Origin: Planctomycetota bacterium
GTDB lineage: Bacteria > Planctomycetota > UBA8742 > UBA2392
Direction: 5' to 3'
Assembly: GCA_020425515.1 (NCBI GenBank)
Contig: JAGQRI010000006.1
Span: forward strand, 1-32,028
Length of the DNA stretch: 32,028 nucleotides
Position 1 is the stretch's first letter; each line of letters begins with the position of its first letter. The notes beneath the pieces are model-generated. The model saw only the letters and a program-made list of their open reading frames with translations. It was not told where the DNA came from and searched no databases. A program made the translations under genes and the position numbers. This document shows, piece by piece, positions 9,875 to 21,079 of the stretch.

Positions 9875-12453
<2,579 letters not shown>

Positions 12454-12464
12454 GACCCCCACGT

Positions 12465-13220
12465 TCAGTCGATACTGTCCAGCGTTTCCTTCGCCTTCTT
12501 GCGCAACTTCTGGACGCTTTCTTTACGCGTCTGGAGCTTCTTCTTAAGGCTCTGGGCGTTGGTGACCAGCAGATCGCCGTCGTCAGCCGACTTCACTTTC
12601 TCTTTCGCGCCGATCAGCTCATCGGCCTGCTTGATCTCGGTCTCGAGGCGCTTTTCTTCCGCGGCTGCCCAGTCGTCGTAGGCTTTGAGTTGCTTCTTGT
12701 CCTCGGCCCTGACTGCCTTTTGCGCAAGCGGATCGGTAATTCCCTCAACGCTGCGCAGCTTGGGCACATCGGGCAAACCCTTCACTGCATCGTCCCAGTC
12801 GTCCAGAGCGGTGAGCGCCTCGGCCACCCGCACGGCCAAGTTGCCGGACGCGTTAATCTGCGAGACGGCGTACTTGGCTGCTGCAGCCCGCAACTCGCCC
12901 TGTTGGTTGCCCAGTTTTTGCTGCGCCTCGGCAAGCAGATCCGCCTTCTCGCCAGCCTTGCGAGTGAGCTCCTTCGCTTCCTTTTTCAGCGTCGCCAGTG
13001 CGGCGCCTTCTGCGCGCTTCTGCGCGGCACGATTATTGGCCACTTTCTGGTCGGCAGCGTCACGCTCATCGCGCGCCAGCCTGACGGCCTTCTCGAGCTC
13101 GGGTATCTCTTTTTTCAGCTTCTTGTAGTCGGGCTCGGCCAATACGCTCCCGGCCGCGACCAGCGCGAGGACACACACGAGCAGCAGACGCCCGAGGCTA
13201 ATCCGGCTTCTTGAGTCCAT
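12465..13220 (-). CDS. Secreted coiled-coil protein of unknown function
   Basis: 251 residues. The N-terminus has a signal peptide (RLLLVCVLALVAAGSVLA, cleavage near residue 29). The mature part is almost entirely charged and helical with heptad character: two long Lys/Glu/Ala-rich segments (about 33-115 and 185-250) flank a less charged middle (about 118-165, with ALDDWDDAVKGLPDVP). There are no cysteines after the signal and no enzyme motif. The ATG lies inside the end of the response-regulator gene in another frame (23-base overlap including the stop), so translation is probably coupled. The next gene begins 11 bases after its stop. The context suggests a periplasmic helper or spacer for the envelope proteins of this operon; no function can be assigned. 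Confidence 0.75.
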   Translation of the reverse strand: MDSRSRISLGRLLLVCVLALVAAGSVLAEPDYKKLKKEIPELEKAVRLARDERDAADQKVANNRAAQKRAEGAALATLKKEAKELTRKAGEKADLLAEAQQKLGNQQGELRAAAAKYAVSQINASGNLAVRVAEALTALDDWDDAVKGLPDVPKLRSVEGITDPLAQKAVRAEDKKQLKAYDDWAAAEEKRLETEIKQADELIGAKEKVKSADDGDLLVTNAQSLKKKLQTRKESVQKLRKKAKETLDSID

Positions 13221-14541
13221 ACTTCTTCATCTTGTATTGCAGAGCGGTCCGGCCCACACCCAGTATGCGCGCAGCGCGCGACACATTCCAACCCGTTTCC
13301 TTGAGCGCATTCAGCAGCGAGTTGCGCTCGATACGTTCAAGGTCGCCGACCAGCCCCTGTGGCGGCTCTTCGCCCGGCGGCAGGCGGGTTGCCTGTGTAA
13401 TCTCCGGCGGCAGATCTTCAACCTTGATGCTGTCATCGGTCGCAAGGGCAATGCAGCGCCGGATGACGTTTTCAAGCTCACGGACGTTCCCCGGCCAGTG
13501 GTACGCCTCAAGGCGCGACATGACCTCTTCGGGCATGGCCAGCTTCGAGCCTTCCTTACCAAGGAAGTACTGCACCAGGCGCGGGATATCACCGCCGCGT
13601 TCGCGTAGCGGAGGCAGAGTTACCGTGACCACATTGACCCGGTAAAACAGGTCTTCGCGGAACCCACCTTCTTTCACCATCTCGCGCAGGTTGCGGTTCG
13701 TCGCACAGACCAGCCGTACGTCCGTGCGCAGTTGCTCCGAGCCGCCGACGCGCTCGAATGTCTTGTCCTGCAGCACGCGCAGCAGCTTCACCTGCGTCGT
13801 CTGCGGGATTTCGCCCAGTTCGTCCAGAAACAATGTACCGCCGTCCGCGGTTTCGAAGCGCCCCTTGCGCTGGCTGTCGGCGCCGGTGAACGCGCCCTTT
13901 TCGTGGCCGAACAGCTCGCTTTCCAGTACACCCGCAGCCAGAGCCCCCGCATGCACGGCGACGAACGGGTTCGTCTCGCGCGGCGACAGTTCGTGCACAG
14001 CGCGGGCCACGAGTTCCTTGCCGGTCCCGCTTTCGCCGAGGATCAATACCGGTACGGTGCTGCGGGCCGCACGCCGGACGATGTCGGCAACTTCAAGCAA
14101 CTGCGGCGCCGATCCGACCAGCCCCGGCAGCGCTTCATCGCCGGTGGGCCGGGTGGGTTCCAGTGCAGCCCCGCCCTCCTGGATGGCTCGTTCGACCTTG
14201 AACTCGAACTCGGCCAGCTCGAACGGTTTCTCCATGAAGTCGGCAGCGCCCAGCGACATCGCCTCCACGGCGTCCTTCACGCTGCCGTGGGCAGTGATCA
14301 TGATGAACGGCGGCGGCTCGCCCTTTTCACTCAGCGCCCGCAACAGCCCAAGCCCGTCGAGCTTCGGCATTTTCAGGTCGCTGACGATGGCATCGAAGCG
14401 CTTTCCTTCGGCAGCTTCCAGCGCCTTCTGCCCGTTTTCGGCCTGGGTAACTTCCATGCCTTTGGCAGTGAGCGCCATCGCCAGCATGTCGCGCATGCTG
14501 GCCTTGTCGTCAACCACGAGCACATTGGGCTTGTTCGCCAC
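13198..14541 (-). CDS. NtrC-family sigma-54-dependent response regulator
   Basis: 447 residues in the order receiver, AAA+, Fis-type helix-turn-helix. Receiver: acidic pair D11/D12, phosphoacceptor D55 in VSDLKMPK, T83 and K105. AAA+ domain: Walker A GESGTGK (169-175), the sigma-54-contacting loop GAFTGA intact at 216-221, Walker B LFLDE with D240/E241, and arginine-finger region FREDLFYRVNV. C-terminus: NVSRAARILGVGRTALQYKM, a Fis-type DNA-binding helix-turn-helix. It should therefore activate RpoN promoters when phosphorylated. The start is GTG, sharing its first base with the TAG stop of the kinase gene, with AGAGG eight bases upstream, so kinase and regulator are coupled and presumably cognate. 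A matching sigma-54 site lies upstream of this operon. Confidence 0.95.
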   Translation of the reverse strand: MANKPNVLVVDDKASMRDMLAMALTAKGMEVTQAENGQKALEAAEGKRFDAIVSDLKMPKLDGLGLLRALSEKGEPPPFIMITAHGSVKDAVEAMSLGAADFMEKPFELAEFEFKVERAIQEGGAALEPTRPTGDEALPGLVGSAPQLLEVADIVRRAARSTVPVLILGESGTGKELVARAVHELSPRETNPFVAVHAGALAAGVLESELFGHEKGAFTGADSQRKGRFETADGGTLFLDELGEIPQTTQVKLLRVLQDKTFERVGGSEQLRTDVRLVCATNRNLREMVKEGGFREDLFYRVNVVTVTLPPLRERGGDIPRLVQYFLGKEGSKLAMPEEVMSRLEAYHWPGNVRELENVIRRCIALATDDSIKVEDLPPEITQATRLPPGEEPPQGLVGDLERIERNSLLNALKETGWNVSRAARILGVGRTALQYKMKKYGLKKPD

Positions 14542-15851
14542 TAGTCCGCCTCTTTCTCGAATGTCGCTCGGAACATGGTACCTGACGAGCCGCTGCGAAT
14601 CAGTTCCAAGTCGCCACCGAGGTCACGCAGCAATCTCCGCGCAATCGGCAGGCCCAACCCCGTGCCGTCCGCCTTGCCCGTTACGAACGGTTCGAACAGT
14701 TTTTCACGCACGTCGTCCGGCATGCCCGGCCCGGTATCCTCGACTTCGATCGTGACCAGCCGGCCGTTGACGTGCGCGGCAAAGCGCAACTCGCCGCCAT
14801 CCTCGCGCATCGCCTCGGCCGCGTTGACGGCAACGTTGGACAGCGCCTCGCGAAGAGCGGTTGAATCTACCTCCAGCTCGACACCCGGCAGGTCCAGTGC
14901 GGGAACTTCCACCTTTCCGCCGCCCGCCGACCGAGCGCTCTCCACAACCGGGCGCAGGACGGCCTCAAGTGAAATCCGCTCCACGGAGCCATGTGCGCCG
15001 CGGCTGAATTGAAGGAAGTCGCGCACGATCCGGTCCAGTGCGGCGATCTCGCTGACCAGCTTGTCCGCGATCTGCTTCTGCATCGGGTCGTCCAATCCGC
15101 GCGCAAGCAACTCGACGTAGCCGCGCAGCGCCGCCAGCGGGTTCTTGATCTGGTGGGCCATACCCGCGCTGAACTGGGCCTGCTCCGCCAGACGGGTCTG
15201 CCTTGCAAGGTCGCGTTGCAGGCGGTTCCAGGCATTTGCCAGCAGCAGCGCCGCACCCAACGTCACCAGGAAGACACAGGCGACGGTCAGCCCCATGGTC
15301 ATCGCGATTGCGTCCAGCTTGTCGGCATAGTCAGCCTCGACCTCAACGGCTACGGCGTAGTCACTTGCACTGCCGTCGTCGTTCGGGATCGGCGCGAAGC
15401 CGTTGCGGTAAAGGCTGCCGTCCGCGTCTTCATAGGTGATCGTCGCAACCGGGCCGCTTTCGAAACACTGTTCCAGCTCGTTCGCATCGGCGGCGAAGCC
15501 GTAGTCGCGGCTGCCGAGGGCGTGGTCCTGCGTGTCGAGCACCAGTGTTCCGTCACGCTTCAGAACCGCCGCGCGACGCACGCCGCTGTTCTGCCGCAAC
15601 GCCTCCAGCCGTTTGCGATAGAGTTGCGCCAGCTCATCATCCGTGCCGGTGATCATGTCCAGCGCTTGCGGGCTGATCCCCGCCGCCGAGGTGGCCGCGT
15701 AGGTCTTCAGCCGGCGCTCAAGCTGTTCCTCATAGCCGGTCCGGATGATCTGGAATGCAACGAGCGCGCCCACCATGAGCGCGCCCGCCATAATCATCGT
15801 GAACGCCCAGCCGAGCAGAAATCCAGTCCTGGTGCCGGGCCTTTTGCTCAT
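14541..15851 (-). CDS. Membrane sensor histidine kinase
   Basis: 436 residues. Two membrane helices (about 11-36 and 183-206) enclose a periplasmic sensor region of about 145 residues with a PAS/Cache-like feel (VRRAAVLKRDGTLVLDT) that I cannot assign to a named family. The kinase core is complete: H-box GMAHQIKNPLAALRGY with the phosphorylatable H233, N-box NVAVNAAEAM (339-348), G1 DTGPGMPDD (372-380), F-box KLFEPFVTGK and G2 GTGLGLPIARRL (396-407). This is the NtrB/ZraS-like arrangement usually paired with sigma-54 regulators, matching the next gene. The ATG overlaps the previous stop (TAATG). The stimulus is unknown; position after a barrel gene suggests envelope sensing. Confidence 0.94.
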   Translation of the reverse strand: MSKRPGTRTGFLLGWAFTMIMAGALMVGALVAFQIIRTGYEEQLERRLKTYAATSAAGISPQALDMITGTDDELAQLYRKRLEALRQNSGVRRAAVLKRDGTLVLDTQDHALGSRDYGFAADANELEQCFESGPVATITYEDADGSLYRNGFAPIPNDDGSASDYAVAVEVEADYADKLDAIAMTMGLTVACVFLVTLGAALLLANAWNRLQRDLARQTRLAEQAQFSAGMAHQIKNPLAALRGYVELLARGLDDPMQKQIADKLVSEIAALDRIVRDFLQFSRGAHGSVERISLEAVLRPVVESARSAGGGKVEVPALDLPGVELEVDSTALREALSNVAVNAAEAMREDGGELRFAAHVNGRLVTIEVEDTGPGMPDDVREKLFEPFVTGKADGTGLGLPIARRLLRDLGGDLELIRSGSSGTMFRATFEKEAD

Positions 15852-17059
15852 TACCAGCCGATCTCCAGGAACGCAGTAATCTCGTGCTGCGCGTAGCCCG
15901 CGTTGTCGATGTCGCTGGTGCGCCGGATGTACGCGTAGCGCGCACCCACCGCGAAGAACTCCCAGAAATTCCAGGCCAGCTCAACGTAGCCGTTCAGGTA
16001 TCGCTCCTGCACGGTCTTGGTGCCGTTGACGCCCACGTTGTCAACGTCGACGCGGTCGTCATATTCGCGTGTCCAGAAGTGCGCACCCACGGTCAGGCGC
16101 ACATCGCCGACCAGGTTCAGGTCCGCCGCGGCACGCAGCCCGTACTGCCAGTAACGCTCATAGCCCGCAGCCGAGTCGTCCTGCCGAATGCTGTACACAC
16201 GCCCGGCCGCTTCGATGAAGGGCAGGTTGAGTTTGAAGTCTGAACCATAATTGAACTTCAGCAGTTGGAGCTTGTCCTCGGTGCTGAGCGGCGTGCCATC
16301 GTCCTGCAGGTCGAGTTGGTCGCGGAACCACTCGTAGTCAAACGCGACGTACGGGTGCAACTCGAGGAAACCGAGAATATCGAAGTAGATGCCGAAGTCG
16401 GACCCGATCGTCCAGCTGTCCAGGCTCGGGATCTGCTGTTCCTCGGTGAAGTCGGTGGTCTGGCCCGTAAACCCGAGCTCAAAGATAATGAATCCCGCAA
16501 CCTCGTACCCGACGTAGGCGCGCGCAATGGCGCCGCTGGCACGCAGGTCGTCCTGCCGGATCAACGGGCCGGTGACTTCATAGGTGGTAAGCTGCTGGTA
16601 CAGGACATCGGCGCTGATCCCGAAGCCGAAGCCGCCGTTGTAGGGCATCTTGAAAAAGCCGCCGAGCTTGACGTCCCAGCGGTCAGCGTCGGGGTCACCG
16701 AAGTACAGGCGCCCGGCAATCTGCCCGCGAGCGCCGATCGAGAACAGCCCGAGGTTCAGCCCAGCGTAGGCATAGCTGGCGCCGTCGATGAACAGCCCGG
16801 TGTCGTCATCCTTGTCTTCGCGGAAGATGTTCGAATCCCAGCCGAATGAGCCACGCGCGCGCAGCCCTATGCCGGTACGATCGCGGCCAAGCGTCAAAGG
16901 CAGGTACTCGCCGTCGGCCAGCCCGCTGACTTCGAAATCGGCCCAGGGATCGACGGGTTCCGCGTTGCTGTCGGGATCGGTGCCCGAGTTGCCGCCCTCC
17001 TGTTGTGCGTATACCGGCGCGGCGAGAAGAACTGCCAGAATGATCAGCCACTTGGCCAT
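15851..17059 (-). CDS. Predicted outer-membrane beta-barrel protein
   Basis: 402 residues from the ATG at 17059, chosen because GGAG lies seven bases upstream and the signal peptide starts at once (MAKWLIILAVLLAAPVYAQQ). The frame stays open upstream to 17122 without a better start. After an acidic linker (GTDPDSNAEPVDPW) the protein alternates polar and aromatic residues in short strands (for example GFIIFELGFTGQTTDF and YVELAWNFWEFFAVGARYAY), and ends in a Trp, typical of the C-terminal aromatic signal of outer-membrane barrels. No family name could be recognised. It heads the five-gene operon with the two-component system and two secreted proteins. It could be a porin-like channel or a signal-input partner; this is inference. 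Confidence 0.75.
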   Translation of the reverse strand: MAKWLIILAVLLAAPVYAQQEGGNSGTDPDSNAEPVDPWADFEVSGLADGEYLPLTLGRDRTGIGLRARGSFGWDSNIFREDKDDDTGLFIDGASYAYAGLNLGLFSIGARGQIAGRLYFGDPDADRWDVKLGGFFKMPYNGGFGFGISADVLYQQLTTYEVTGPLIRQDDLRASGAIARAYVGYEVAGFIIFELGFTGQTTDFTEEQQIPSLDSWTIGSDFGIYFDILGFLELHPYVAFDYEWFRDQLDLQDDGTPLSTEDKLQLLKFNYGSDFKLNLPFIEAAGRVYSIRQDDSAAGYERYWQYGLRAAADLNLVGDVRLTVGAHFWTREYDDRVDVDNVGVNGTKTVQERYLNGYVELAWNFWEFFAVGARYAYIRRTSDIDNAGYAQHEITAFLEIGW

Positions 17060-17093: not shown

Positions 17094-17122
17094 AGGTTAA
17101 GCGTGTGTTGGCAAAGTGACAA
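17094..17122 (-). promoter_or_regulatory. Sigma-70-like promoter for the barrel/two-component operon
   Basis: On the minus strand TTGTCA (17122-17117, five of six to TTGACA), a 17-base spacer and TAACCT (17099-17094) precede the barrel gene. A start near 17087 would give a leader of about 28 bases ending in the GGAG ribosome binding site. The -10 box is poor, so a housekeeping basal promoter is plausible but not certain. Confidence 0.45.
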
Positions 17123-17152
17123 GCTTCGCGCGCCCTGCCCGGGAATGAGTAT

Positions 17153-17187
17153 GGCAGCCGGTCGGTGGGGCCATACCGCCGGCTGCC
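17153..17187 (-). other. Long hairpin in the leader of the predicted sigma-54 transcript
   Basis: GGCAGCCGG (17153-17161) pairs with CCGGCTGCC (17179-17187), a perfect 9-bp stem, continued after one bulged base by CGGT (17163-17166) with ACCG (17175-17178) and closed by an 8-base loop. No T-run follows on either strand. It lies downstream of the sigma-54 site and upstream of the sigma-70-like site on the minus strand, so it would be in the RNA only of the sigma-54 transcript. Confidence 0.5.
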
Positions 17188-17234
17188 TTCCTCATTTTGC
17201 CTGAGAACCCTTATTCCCAGACAAAAGTAGCTAA

Positions 17235-17251
17235 AGCAGGAGGCGTGCCAA
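17235..17251 (-). promoter_or_regulatory. Sigma-54 (RpoN) -24/-12 promoter for the two-component operon
   Basis: The minus strand reads TTGGCACG (17251-17244), four bases CCTC, then CTGCT (17239-17235). The known consensus is YTGGCACG-N4-TTGCW. The -24 element matches fully and the essential GC of the -12 element is in the correct register; one base of the -12 element differs. Predicted transcription start is near 17225, giving a leader of about 165 bases to the barrel gene ATG. The operon itself encodes a GAFTGA-containing sigma-54 activator, which makes autoregulation likely. Confidence 0.65.
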
Positions 17252-17335
17252 TCCGGATGAGCATGCGGCGGGATTAGGCGAAATGCTTTGACGTAGGGGT
17301 TGGGAAGCACTTTCACCTTTCAGGCGTTCCTCAAG

Positions 17336-17386
17336 GATGCCGGTTGTCAGGCAGATTCCCGGCAGAACTGCCAGATTTCCGGCATC
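17336..17386. promoter_or_regulatory. Nested dyad with two 13-bp direct repeats, candidate activator binding site
   Basis: GATGCCGG (17336-17343) and CCGGCATC (17379-17386) are a perfect 8-bp inverted repeat. Inside, GGCAG (17350-17354) and CTGCC (17368-17372) form a second inverted pair. In addition CAGATTCCCGGCA (17352-17364) and CAGATTTCCGGCA (17372-17384) are direct repeats with one mismatch, 20 bases apart (about two helical turns). The element lies about 110-160 bases upstream of the predicted sigma-54 start, the usual distance for an NtrC-type enhancer, and also just before the XPB gene. Confidence 0.5.
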
Positions 17387-17442: not shown

Positions 17443-19176
17443 TTGGCGGATACACGCGGACCGGCAATCGTCCAGGCGGATCTCACGATCCTCCTTGAAG
17501 TCGATCACCCCGACTACGAGTCGGCCCGTGACGCGTTGGCCGCGTTCGCCGAACTGGTCAAAAGCCCCGAGCACATCCACACCTACCGCATCACCCCACT
17601 GAGCCTGTGGAACGCTGCGGCTTCGGGCATCACGGCGGCACAGGTGCTGGACGCGCTTGAGAAGTACTCGCGTTACGAAGTGCCCGAGCTGGTACGCACC
17701 GAAGTCGTTGAATACATCAGCCGCTATGGGCGCCTGGTACTTGAGCTGCGCGACGGGCAGTACATCCTGCGCAGCGACGATGCTGTCCTGCTGAAGATGC
17801 TCACGAACCAGAAGGGCGTTGCGCAGTACTTCGAGGGAATGCTGGACGACAACACCGCGCTGATCAGCCCGTCGGCGCGCGGCTACCTGAAGCAGGGGCT
17901 GGTCAAGATCGGCTTTCCTGTTGAGGACTTGGCCGGCTACACCCCCGGCGAACATCTCGATATCGAACTGCGCGACCAGACGCTCGGCGGGCGCGACTTC
18001 GGACTGCGCCGCTACCAGAAGGAAGCGGCTGAAGTCTTCTACGCCGGCGGCGGCGTCAAGGGCGGCAGCGGCGTGGTGGTGCTGCCGTGCGGCGCGGGCA
18101 AGACAATCGTCGCGATCGGCGCGATGGGCCAGGTGCAGGCGCACACGCTGATCCTGACCGCCAACGTAGTTGCCGTGCGCCAGTGGATTCGCGAGATCAT
18201 TGACAAAACCAGCCTGCGTGAAGACCAGGTCGCGGAGTACACGGGCGACAGCAAGAACATCGCGCCCGTGACCGTCGCGACTTACCAGATTGTGACCTAC
18301 CGCAAGCGCAAGTCGGACGAATTCCCGCACTTCGAGATCTTCAACAAGGGCGACTGGGGGCTGATCGTTTACGACGAAGTGCATTTGCTGCCCGCGCCCG
18401 TGTTCCGCGCCACGGCCGAGATACAGTCGCGCCGGCGCCTCGGCTTGACCGCGACGCTGGTCCGCGAAGACGGCCACGAGGAAGACGTCTTCAGCCTCGT
18501 CGGGCCCAAACGCTACGACGTGCCGTGGCGGGAACTGGAGAAACAGGGCTGGATCGCCACGGCCGACTGCACCGAGGTTCGCGTGGAGCTGCCGGGCACC
18601 CAGCGCATGCCGTACGCGCTCGCGGGCCAGCGCGACCAGTACCGCATCGCCGCCGAGAACCCGCAAAAGATGGACGTGCTGGAGGCGCTGCTGAAGCTGC
18701 ACGAAAAGGACCGCACGCTCGTCATCGCGCAGTACCTTGACCAGTTGCACGAACTGGCGACGCGCTTCGACCTGCCGTTGATCGAAGGCAAGACGCCCAG
18801 CAAGAAACGCGACGAGCTGTACGAGAAGTTCCGCAGCGGCGAGATCACGACGCTGGCGGTGAGCAAGGTCGGCAACTTCGCGGTGGACCTGCCGGACGCG
18901 AACGTGATGGTCCAGCTCAGCGGCACGTTCGGAAGCAGACAAGAGGAAGCGCAGCGCCTCGGGCGGATTCTGCGCCCGAAAGACGACGGCACGCTGGCGC
19001 ACTTCTACACCATCGTGACGCGCGAAACCCGCGACCAGGACTTCGGGGCCAACCGGCAACTCTTCCTGGTCGAGCAGGGCTACCGCTACCGCATCGTCGA
19101 CGGCAGCGAAGTACTGGGCGGCGAGTTCAAGCCCGCCGAGCCCGACCCGCACATCGAGCAGGAGGCCGCGCCATGA
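17443..19176 (+). CDS. XPB/Rad25-family DNA helicase
   Basis: 577 residues from the TTG at 17443, which is preceded at eight bases by GGAGG (17430-17434); upstream in-frame starts have no such site. The N-terminal 100 residues (IVQADLTILLEV onward) resemble the Helicase_C_3 domain. Then come the XPB damage-recognition-like region and superfamily-2 motor: Walker A GAGKT (217-221), DEVH box (311-314), LGLTATLVRED with the XPB-specific RED at 341-343, and motif VI QRLGRILRPK (504-513). The bacterial XPB family are 3'-5' DNA helicases related to the TFIIH subunit and are thought to act in DNA repair. The four-base ATGA overlap with the next gene shows coupling. No Bax1-type nuclease is adjacent. 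Confidence 0.9.
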   Translation: MADTRGPAIVQADLTILLEVDHPDYESARDALAAFAELVKSPEHIHTYRITPLSLWNAAASGITAAQVLDALEKYSRYEVPELVRTEVVEYISRYGRLVLELRDGQYILRSDDAVLLKMLTNQKGVAQYFEGMLDDNTALISPSARGYLKQGLVKIGFPVEDLAGYTPGEHLDIELRDQTLGGRDFGLRRYQKEAAEVFYAGGGVKGGSGVVVLPCGAGKTIVAIGAMGQVQAHTLILTANVVAVRQWIREIIDKTSLREDQVAEYTGDSKNIAPVTVATYQIVTYRKRKSDEFPHFEIFNKGDWGLIVYDEVHLLPAPVFRATAEIQSRRRLGLTATLVREDGHEEDVFSLVGPKRYDVPWRELEKQGWIATADCTEVRVELPGTQRMPYALAGQRDQYRIAAENPQKMDVLEALLKLHEKDRTLVIAQYLDQLHELATRFDLPLIEGKTPSKKRDELYEKFRSGEITTLAVSKVGNFAVDLPDANVMVQLSGTFGSRQEEAQRLGRILRPKDDGTLAHFYTIVTRETRDQDFGANRQLFLVEQGYRYRIVDGSEVLGGEFKPAEPDPHIEQEAAP

Positions 19177-19370
19177 AGTTCCACCTGCACGTGGGCGTAA
19201 TCGAAACGGTCGACGAAACAACGCTCAATGAAGTGCTGGCCGTGGCCGATTGCACCGAGCGCGTGCTGGCAAGGCTGGCACCGAACCTGGCCGTGCTTGA
19301 GCGTGAGGACTGCGAAAAGGTAATCACCGCGCTCGAAGGCAACGGGCTGCACCCGAAGGTAATGCGATGA
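19173..19370 (+). CDS. Small protein encoded between XPB and its companion
   Basis: 65 residues, overlapping the XPB gene by four bases at its start and the next gene by four bases at its end (ATGA both times), so it is very likely translated. It is a compact alpha/beta-looking polypeptide: FHLHVGVIETV, then a helix TTLNEVLAVADCTERVLARL, and a C-terminal EDCEKVITALEGNGLHPKVM. There is no signal peptide, no membrane helix and no recognised domain; the two cysteines are about 40 residues apart. Its strict coupling suggests a subunit or adaptor of the helicase. The function is unknown to me. Confidence 0.75.
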   Translation: MKFHLHVGVIETVDETTLNEVLAVADCTERVLARLAPNLAVLEREDCEKVITALEGNGLHPKVMR

Positions 19371-21079
19371 CGGATACGGCGATCAAAACCGCCCGCGGCT
19401 TCCACACCGCCGAGCTTGACCTGCTCAGCGTGCTGGAAGTCGTCATCGCACGCTCACCGAAGGTGCTCAAGAACGGCCTGCCCAACCTGGCATTCTTCCG
19501 CGCCGCAAACGCCGCGCTTCACGAACCGGACGATGAGGCTGACGGCGTCGGTTTCGTGCAGGTCGAGTTCTGGCTCACCCTGGCGCGCAACCTGGAACTG
19601 CTCGCCAATGCGGATGGCCAGCTGGTCGTCACACCGGAGGCAGACCAGTTCTTCGCCATCAGTTCCGGCGAGCGTTTGCTCAGGCTGCGGGAAACCTGGC
19701 TTGCCGCGACGGAGCTGAACGAGTTCGCGCTCACGCCCGAGCTGGAGTTGCCTGCGCTCAAGAAGGGCCGCACCGTGGACGTTACGTCCGACGTGCCGGT
19801 GGCCGACCGCATCTTGGAAGCGCGGCGTCTGCTGGTGGACGTCGTCAGCAGCCTCGACGCCGAGATCACGCTGGCCCAGCTACTGCGTCGCCTCGAGCGC
19901 GAACATCGAAACCTGTTCGTCAACCACGACGACGACAGCAGTTGGCGCCACACCTACTACCGCGGGATCCGCGAACGCGGCGGGCGCGAAGACGTCGAGC
20001 GTGACGGTAGCTGGCAACTGGTGGAAGGCGCCGTCCTGCGCCTGATGTGCACGCTGCCGTTGGCCCGGCTGGGCTGGATCGACTACGACCCGCAAAGCGA
20101 CGTGATCACACCCGCCGGCGAAGGCGGGCTTACGGAGCCGTCATTCGAAGTAGTGGTGCAGCCGAACTTCGAGGTCGTCGCGCTGGGCGACCGCCCGGAC
20201 CCGTCGGCGCTCTGGAAACTCGCCCGTTTCACCACGCCCCGCCCCGAGGGCCGCGTGCGCACCTACGTACTGGAACGCAAACCGTTTGCCGATGCCCTGG
20301 GCCGGGGCGAACCCGCCGCAGGGCTGGTCGACTTTCTGGCCGGGCTGTCGCGCTCGCCGATTCCGCAGAACGTGCGCTTCTCACTGGATGACTGGGCGAC
20401 GCTTTCCGAGCGCATCAAGATCTGGCCGGACGCGCTGCTGATCGAAGCCGAGGGAGTCGAAGAACTCGCGAAGGTTGTGCCCGAAAAACTGCTGCAAGCC
20501 TTGCAGCCGACGCAGCTGGCCGGCGGACACTACGCCGTGCCGGCGCCCGACCCGGGCGTGCTGCGCGAAAACCTGCCGCCGCGCCGCGCCGTGCTGGACT
20601 ACTCGCGCCGTCTGGCGCCGGTGATCAACCCCACCGAAGGCACCGACCTGCTCGCGCCGCGCGAAGAGTTGCACTTGCGGGCACGGCAGCTTCTGGCACT
20701 CGTCAGCCACAGCCGCTCGACCGATCGCTATGAACTCGACGCCGAACTGGTGACTCTCTCATCCCAAGCCATCGGTGGCGAAGAATTATTGCGCCGCCTG
20801 CGCGAAGGGCTCAGCAGGCCGCTGTCATCCGCGCTGTCGCTCGCGATTCGTACCTGGGCAGGCGAGTTCCCGCGCCCCTACGCCGGCGGGGCCGAGGTGC
20901 TGCTGGCCGAGAATCGCGAACAGGCCGAGTTGCTTGACGAGATGCCCGAGTTCCGCCGCTGGGTGGACCGGCGCCTGGCGCCGGGCGTGTTCCTGCTGCG
21001 CCCGAACGGGACCATCGAGTTGCGAAAGCTGCTTGAGGGGCTGGGAATTGAGCTGCGCAAGGACGCGCGAGGACGTTGA
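19367..21079 (+). CDS. XPB companion protein with Helicase_C_3-type domain
   Basis: 570 residues, cytoplasmic. Residues about 258-380 match the Helicase_C_3 (XPB/Ssl2 N-terminal-like) pattern: EVVVQPNFEVVALG, a region of helices, FLAGLSRSPIPQNVRFSLDDW, then WPDALLIEAEG. The N-terminal 240 residues are winged-helix-like in composition (FWLTLARNLELLANADGQLVVT) but cannot be assigned firmly. Helicase-associated proteins of this kind are known next to bacterial XPB genes, for example in actinobacteria. No ATPase motifs are present, so it is probably a DNA- or helicase-binding partner rather than a motor. It overlaps its neighbours on both sides (ATGA upstream, TGATG downstream). Confidence 0.8.
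   Translation: MTDTAIKTARGFHTAELDLLSVLEVVIARSPKVLKNGLPNLAFFRAANAALHEPDDEADGVGFVQVEFWLTLARNLELLANADGQLVVTPEADQFFAISSGERLLRLRETWLAATELNEFALTPELELPALKKGRTVDVTSDVPVADRILEARRLLVDVVSSLDAEITLAQLLRRLEREHRNLFVNHDDDSSWRHTYYRGIRERGGREDVERDGSWQLVEGAVLRLMCTLPLARLGWIDYDPQSDVITPAGEGGLTEPSFEVVVQPNFEVVALGDRPDPSALWKLARFTTPRPEGRVRTYVLERKPFADALGRGEPAAGLVDFLAGLSRSPIPQNVRFSLDDWATLSERIKIWPDALLIEAEGVEELAKVVPEKLLQALQPTQLAGGHYAVPAPDPGVLRENLPPRRAVLDYSRRLAPVINPTEGTDLLAPREELHLRARQLLALVSHSRSTDRYELDAELVTLSSQAIGGEELLRRLREGLSRPLSSALSLAIRTWAGEFPRPYAGGAEVLLAENREQAELLDEMPEFRRWVDRRLAPGVFLLRPNGTIELRKLLEGLGIELRKDARGR

Follow-up and report, generated by a model that had tools for sequence, protein, structure and literature searches.

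A predicted sigma-54-dependent small RNA beside a two-component system operon in one family of Planctomycetota

Gene organization at the locus

The window, that is, the whole stretch of DNA analyzed here, is a 32,028-nt contig (C122) of a 4.1-Mb Planctomycetota genome assembly, which comprises 410 contigs and is about 80% complete. The closest named relatives of this genome are Planctomycetota metagenome assemblies. The features discussed below are listed in Table 1. A barrel gene located 3' of a sigma-54 promoter was also found in 15 more genomes of the same family (six genera, that of the window included). The resulting set of 16 genomes represents one Planctomycetota family and thus few independent lineages; together with three duplicate loci, it yielded 19 loci for alignment. 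The gene order, namely XPB helicase (divergent), RNA, barrel, kinase, regulator, and coiled-coil protein, is conserved, with one contig cut short.

Table 1. Features of the locus in window coordinates, and the leader of the candidate target gene
Feature	Position	Strand	Basis
Operator 1, TGCCGGAAATCTGGCA, beginning near -160 relative to the predicted start	17369..17384	-	TGCC-N8-GGCA enrichment
Operator 2, TGCCTGACAACCGGCA, starting about -129	17338..17353	-	TGCC-N8-GGCA enrichment
Sigma-54 promoter, -24/-12 element TTGGCACGCCTCCTGCT	17235..17251	-	GG and GC invariant in 19/19 loci
Predicted small RNA gene, start near 17224, end about 17140 (ends inferred)	17140..17224	-	Covariance model
Hairpin 1, predicted 5' end of the RNA	17197..17224	-	Fold; two-sided changes in 4/10 pairs
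Hairpin 2, long, G+C-rich, possibly also terminator	17153..17187	-	Fold, covariation
Invariant loop UGGCCCCA, proposed pairing seed	17166..17173	-	Identical in 19/19 copies; complementary to conserved ribosome-binding site
Sigma-70-like promoter of the operon, TTGTCA-N17-TAACCT	17094..17122	-	Strict scan, 12/16 genomes
Outer-membrane beta-barrel protein, first gene of the operon	15851..17059	-	Structure model, OmpG-like best match
Sensor histidine kinase	14541..15851	-	HisKA and HATPase_c; two membrane segments
NtrC-type response regulator, probable activator of the RNA promoter	13198..14541	-	Receiver, sigma-54 AAA+, Fis-type HTH
Exported coiled-coil-like protein, linked gene	12465..13220	-	No family match; conserved synteny
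Leader of the secreted-protein gene (candidate target), TTGGGGCCAGGAGGACAACGTTATG

The barrel protein had no family match. Its structure model has about 16 strands at moderate confidence, with OmpG as the best structural match, and no sequence-related solved structure was found. The response regulator noted in the first-pass annotation is present and carries the GAFTGA motif. Its resemblance to NtrC and AtoC is a general one, and none of the equivalog cut-offs, GlrR included, was reached among the matches listed. On the other side of the RNA, and divergent from it, window positions 17443-21079 encode two proteins that keep their place family-wide. One is an XPB-type bacterial helicase (NCBIfam NF045503, 864 bits), and the other is a further Helicase_C_3 protein.

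The sigma-54 promoter and its putative upstream operators

The -24/-12 site was found on the minus strand as first annotated, and it is kept in 16/16 family genomes and in the three duplicate loci. TGGCAC and the GC of the -12 element were invariant (2.0 bits) in the 19 homologous loci, and the upstream bases mostly carried <0.5 bit. The genome encodes rpoN (TIGR02395, 399.8 bits, above cut-off), and a genome-wide scan for TTGGCACGNNNNNTGCW gave 6 sites in 4.1 Mb versus 1 in the reversed control. The 19-locus invariance, the sharp drop of information upstream, and the presence of RpoN together indicate a genuine, maintained sigma-54 promoter. Two further strong -24/-12 sites in G000 (L100 and L101) lie directly 5' of other genes, one Hsp20-like and one encoding a secreted protein; neither site has a TGCC-N8-GGCA dyad within 220 bases upstream.

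The region upstream of the promoter had been described as containing an 8-bp dyad and two 13-bp direct repeats. The repeats, CAGATT.CCGGCA, were confirmed at 17352-17364 and 17372-17384, 20 bases apart. The dyad also exists, as GATGCCGG at 17336-17343 with its inverted copy at 17379-17386, but these are halves of two different elements, and we replaced this operator by two TGCC-N8-GGCA palindromes, which are the conserved unit. TGCC-N8-GGCA occurred 15 times in 13/19 loci, compared with 0.11 expected by shuffling. When one changed outer base was allowed, two dyads close to -160 and -130, at a distance of 31-33 bp from each other, were found in many loci; other loci have a TGCC-N3-GGCA copy. 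The distance of these tandem dyads from the promoter is within the usual range for NtrC-type activators. Because of the gene linkage, we infer that the dyads are bound by the adjacent regulator, although another activator could bind the predicted operator instead. We also considered a wider regulon: the 16 genomes contain 40 operator-like sites versus 6 in the reversed control, and among those fetched away from the RNA none had a good -24/-12 site nearby, so this idea was dropped. The 16-bp operator TGCCGGAAATCTGGCA recurs without a mismatch at G000:C138:12334-12349 (L163), where no -24/-12 site lies within 260 bp.

A predicted, conserved two-hairpin RNA

Comparison of the loci predicts that the sigma-54 site first starts a previously undescribed small regulatory RNA of ~75-90 nt, which would form two hairpins directly 3' of the promoter. 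Across the 19 copies, the structure was 97.3% paired. Two-sided compensations numbered 23; shuffling gave 7.4, and sliding the partners gave 2-8. The covariance model built on this structure matched 16/16 family genomes, and its scores were strand-specific (about 90 bits versus about 30 on the opposite strand). The apex of hairpin 2, GUAUGGCCCCAC, is the invariant apical sequence of the RNA, and in the predicted fold almost no energy is needed to expose seven bases of the loop. Behind hairpin 2, the next 12 nt contain 3-6 T, and the U-run is weak in the window's genus.

No Rfam family came near its gathering score, and the matches below threshold were at chance level. Outside the family, the sole match among 392 phylum-wide genomes was G193 (E 9.6e-5), and an earlier covariance search had given G059 (E 5.7e-4); homology beyond the family is unsupported at these values. 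A conserved small peptide within the RNA was rejected, as the frames starting from the loop ATG diverge in length and sequence.

Conserved complementarity to the leader of a secreted-protein gene

Candidate targets were searched as the 8-nt complement of the loop within 25 nt before an ATG, and the totals were near control. One match recurred: TGGGGCCAGGAGGAC, followed by a few bases and then ATG, was found in G000, G001, and G002. The three genes are orthologues; their product has ~630-680 aa, starts with a signal-peptide-like segment, and belongs to no Pfam family. In G002, the gene is flanked by a T2SS-K-like gene on one side and a Ser/Thr kinase gene on the other. A homologue was present in 16/16 genomes. 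In 6/6 members of the window's genus, TGGGGCCA or GGGGCC adjoins the Shine-Dalgarno sequence of the orthologue, giving 7-8 nt of complementarity in leaders whose flanking sequence differs. GGGGCC occurred in every orthologue examined in this genus, including the second copy in G004.

In the five other genera, the complementarity is weaker, yet persistent. Two genomes of genus g2 have TGGGGTTA, in which 8 pairs are kept through G-U, and the third (G011) has six pairs. Genus g6 has AGGGCCA at the same 12-nt distance, with six pairs, and G008 also has six. The match is located further upstream in g4 and g5 and comprises only five pairs in g3; in G007, five pairs are found 51 nt upstream.

Because the target gene had been chosen in the window's genus by pattern search, the main statistical test was run on the other genera. 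There, the mean duplex energy was -13.66 kcal/mol versus -8.27 for permuted loops, and 0/1000 permutations equalled the real loop. Random sets of eight genes, drawn from 387, reached the real value in 0/20000 draws. When all 16 genomes were included, 4/1000 permuted loops did as well as the real loop. Within a 400-kb stretch of G002, the target gene ranked second of 303, after an open frame without a Shine-Dalgarno sequence. The target site in G000 would cost about 5.1 kcal/mol to open. Pairing beside the Shine-Dalgarno sequence predicts repression.

Two other candidates were rejected. The Ser/Thr kinase gene, which is next in the target operon, has complementarity in G002 that is lost in other genera, and the 10-nt complement GTGGGGCCAT occurs in G000 only as the antisense of the RNA itself. 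No consistent target was found inside the barrel-kinase-regulator operon.

The complete invariance of the loop could also reflect a protein partner. In that case, a sigma-54-dependent small RNA would bind a protein via its loop and titrate it, and the leader match would be a by-product of G-rich ribosome-binding sites. The loop, identical in 19/19 copies, is indeed stricter than many pairing seeds, and GlmY and CrcZ are known sigma-54-controlled small RNAs that act on proteins (PMC7073468; PMC8871633). Nevertheless, we consider titration unlikely. The complementarity stands out against both permuted loops and other genes, the G-U changes keep the pairing in two genomes while the neighboring gene does not keep its complementarity, and neither Hfq nor RapZ was found as a protein to titrate in the six family genomes searched.

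In G004, a small secreted-protein gene of another family (G004:C55:92391, L209) has TGGGGCCAGGAG at its ribosome-binding site, and its leader also holds a TGCC-N8-GGCA dyad. On this sequence match, it is a possible second target in the species of G004.

The RNA and the operon as probable separate transcription units

Second copies of the RNA, each with its own -24/-12 site, were found elsewhere in G010, G013, and G015. At all three, the gene that follows is oriented convergently, with its end some 34-43 nt 3' of the loop. The copy in G015 adjoins what we take, from the sequences, to be purQ and a peptide-binding protein gene; in G010 and G013, the convergent gene is followed by genes that are presumably argininosuccinate-synthase-like and -lyase-like. 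Since a leader could not work in front of convergent genes, these copies indicate a stand-alone small RNA gene and not only a leader.

The operon also appears to have a promoter of its own. A strict scan for TTGTNN-N17-TANNNT between the RNA and the barrel gene detected a sigma-70-like site in 12/16 genomes, with 0.37 expected and a spacing that is always 17; a looser scan added the loci of G010, G011, and G013, and only that of G015 was missed. The distance from the RNA to the ATG varies about threefold. The second copies and the operon's own promoter make it likely that the RNA and the operon are transcribed as two separate units. Read-through into the operon is possible, because the window's genus has a weak U-run 3' of hairpin 2 and because glmY and qseEGF are co-transcribed in Proteus mirabilis (PMC8745638).

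These results modify the earlier interpretation, in which the regulator activates its own operon from the sigma-54 promoter. The promoter, the tandem dyads, rpoN, and the fixed linkage to the kinase/activator pair all stand, but the comparisons do not support the view that the promoter simply drives the operon: a separate RNA gene comes first downstream, and the operon has its own promoter. We regard as quite improbable a version in which the sigma-54 promoter mainly serves the barrel-kinase-regulator operon and the hairpins form a 5' leader, that is, an attenuator or stability element of an autoregulatory switch. The fixed synteny agrees with it, as do the weak U-run and the Proteus co-transcription, whereas the three copies before convergent genes, the conserved promoter beyond the RNA with its constant spacing, and the variable distance to the ATG do not. 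That the hairpin is a DNA-level element (a protein-binding inverted repeat or cruciform) or a terminator with no functional RNA is very unlikely: a perfect G+C-rich stem would fold as DNA too, and the model gives weak matches on the reverse strand, but the two hairpins keep a fixed spacing from the sigma-54 start, hairpin 1 contains G-U pairs, and the scores differ strongly between strands.

Proposed circuit and comparison with known systems

The probable explanation, based on the comparisons above, is that a small RNA, sigma-54-dependent and apparently independent of Hfq, is switched on by the kinase/regulator pair and blocks translation of a secreted protein, with the operon expressed apart from its separate sigma-70-like promoter. 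An envelope signal would lead the adjacent kinase to phosphorylate the adjacent NtrC-type regulator, which would bind the two TGCC-N8-GGCA dyads and activate E-sigma54. The resulting two-hairpin RNA would expose its C-rich loop UGGCCCCA, and this would pair with UGGGGCCA beside the Shine-Dalgarno sequence of the ~630-680-aa secreted-protein mRNA and block translation.

We searched six family genomes for known RNA chaperones and adaptors. Hfq (PF17209) was absent from all six, with 5 controls positive, and so was RapZ (PF03668), with 6 controls positive. These genomes are 80-94% complete, and loss through incompleteness is unlikely because the genes are absent in all six.

The layout parallels glmY-glrK-yfhG-glrR of E. 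coli. In the GlmY system of Enterobacteriaceae with QseE/QseF (GlrK/GlrR), a sigma-54 small RNA gene with upstream dyads and an NtrC-type activator likewise directly precedes an operon for the kinase, the regulator, and an outer-membrane protein (PMC6075780). In E. coli, glmY is directly followed by the operon's sigma-70 promoter, and there is no autoregulation of the operon (PMC6075780). The systems differ in that the RNA here has no Rfam match to GlmY and is found with neither RapZ nor Hfq; the operator is TGCC-N8-GGCA, not TGTCN10GACA; the outer-membrane protein is a barrel, whereas QseG is a lipoprotein; and the regulator scored 349 bits against the GlrR cut-off of 763. CrcZ/CrcY of Pseudomonadaceae is likewise a sigma-54-dependent small RNA, a separate unit beside its activating two-component system CbrA/CbrB (PMC8871633). 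However, crcZ is downstream of cbrB and its product titrates Hfq/Crc, whereas the RNA here is upstream and much shorter, and no Hfq was found. At the level of the promoter, the predicted RNA would function as GlmY and CrcZ do; it is a member of neither family.

The Qrr small RNAs of Vibrio, which are made by the NtrC-type regulator LuxO with sigma-54, are short base-pairing RNAs, as predicted here. They are Hfq-dependent; the present RNA has no Rfam match, and its regulator scored 352 bits against the LuxO cut-off of 800.

A more specific reading, to which we give somewhat less than even confidence, is an Hfq-free envelope circuit of Planctomycetota, in which barrel, kinase, and sigma-54 regulator jointly give rise to a single dedicated small RNA whose 8-nt loop alone represses the secreted protein. 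This would be a convergent counterpart of GlmY-QseEF without a known chaperone. The literature that we searched contained no work on small RNAs under sigma-54 control in Planctomycetota, and a review counted only 8 small RNA families for the whole PVC group (PMC9029176). For the predicted RNA, the promoter and operators, a probable activator, the seed, and a candidate target can all be named, in genomes without detected Hfq. This RNA suggests that sigma-54-driven small RNAs came to lie next to their own two-component systems on more than one occasion, and it offers a compact case for how base-pairing small RNAs may work without Hfq.

Variation of the gene cluster within the family

In three loci (L103, L104, and L106), about 115-158 extra bases lie between the kinase and regulator genes. 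The regulator matches of L103 and L104 and the barrel match of L106 are split into two overlapping pieces, which represent frameshifts, small duplications, or assembly errors. The repeat-protein gene that closes the cluster (10603-12462 in the window, where it is single) has two homologues in tandem in L102-L105, L110, and L113. G007:C46 (L019, L120) contains a second barrel paralogue that has neither the RNA nor a sigma-54 site in front.
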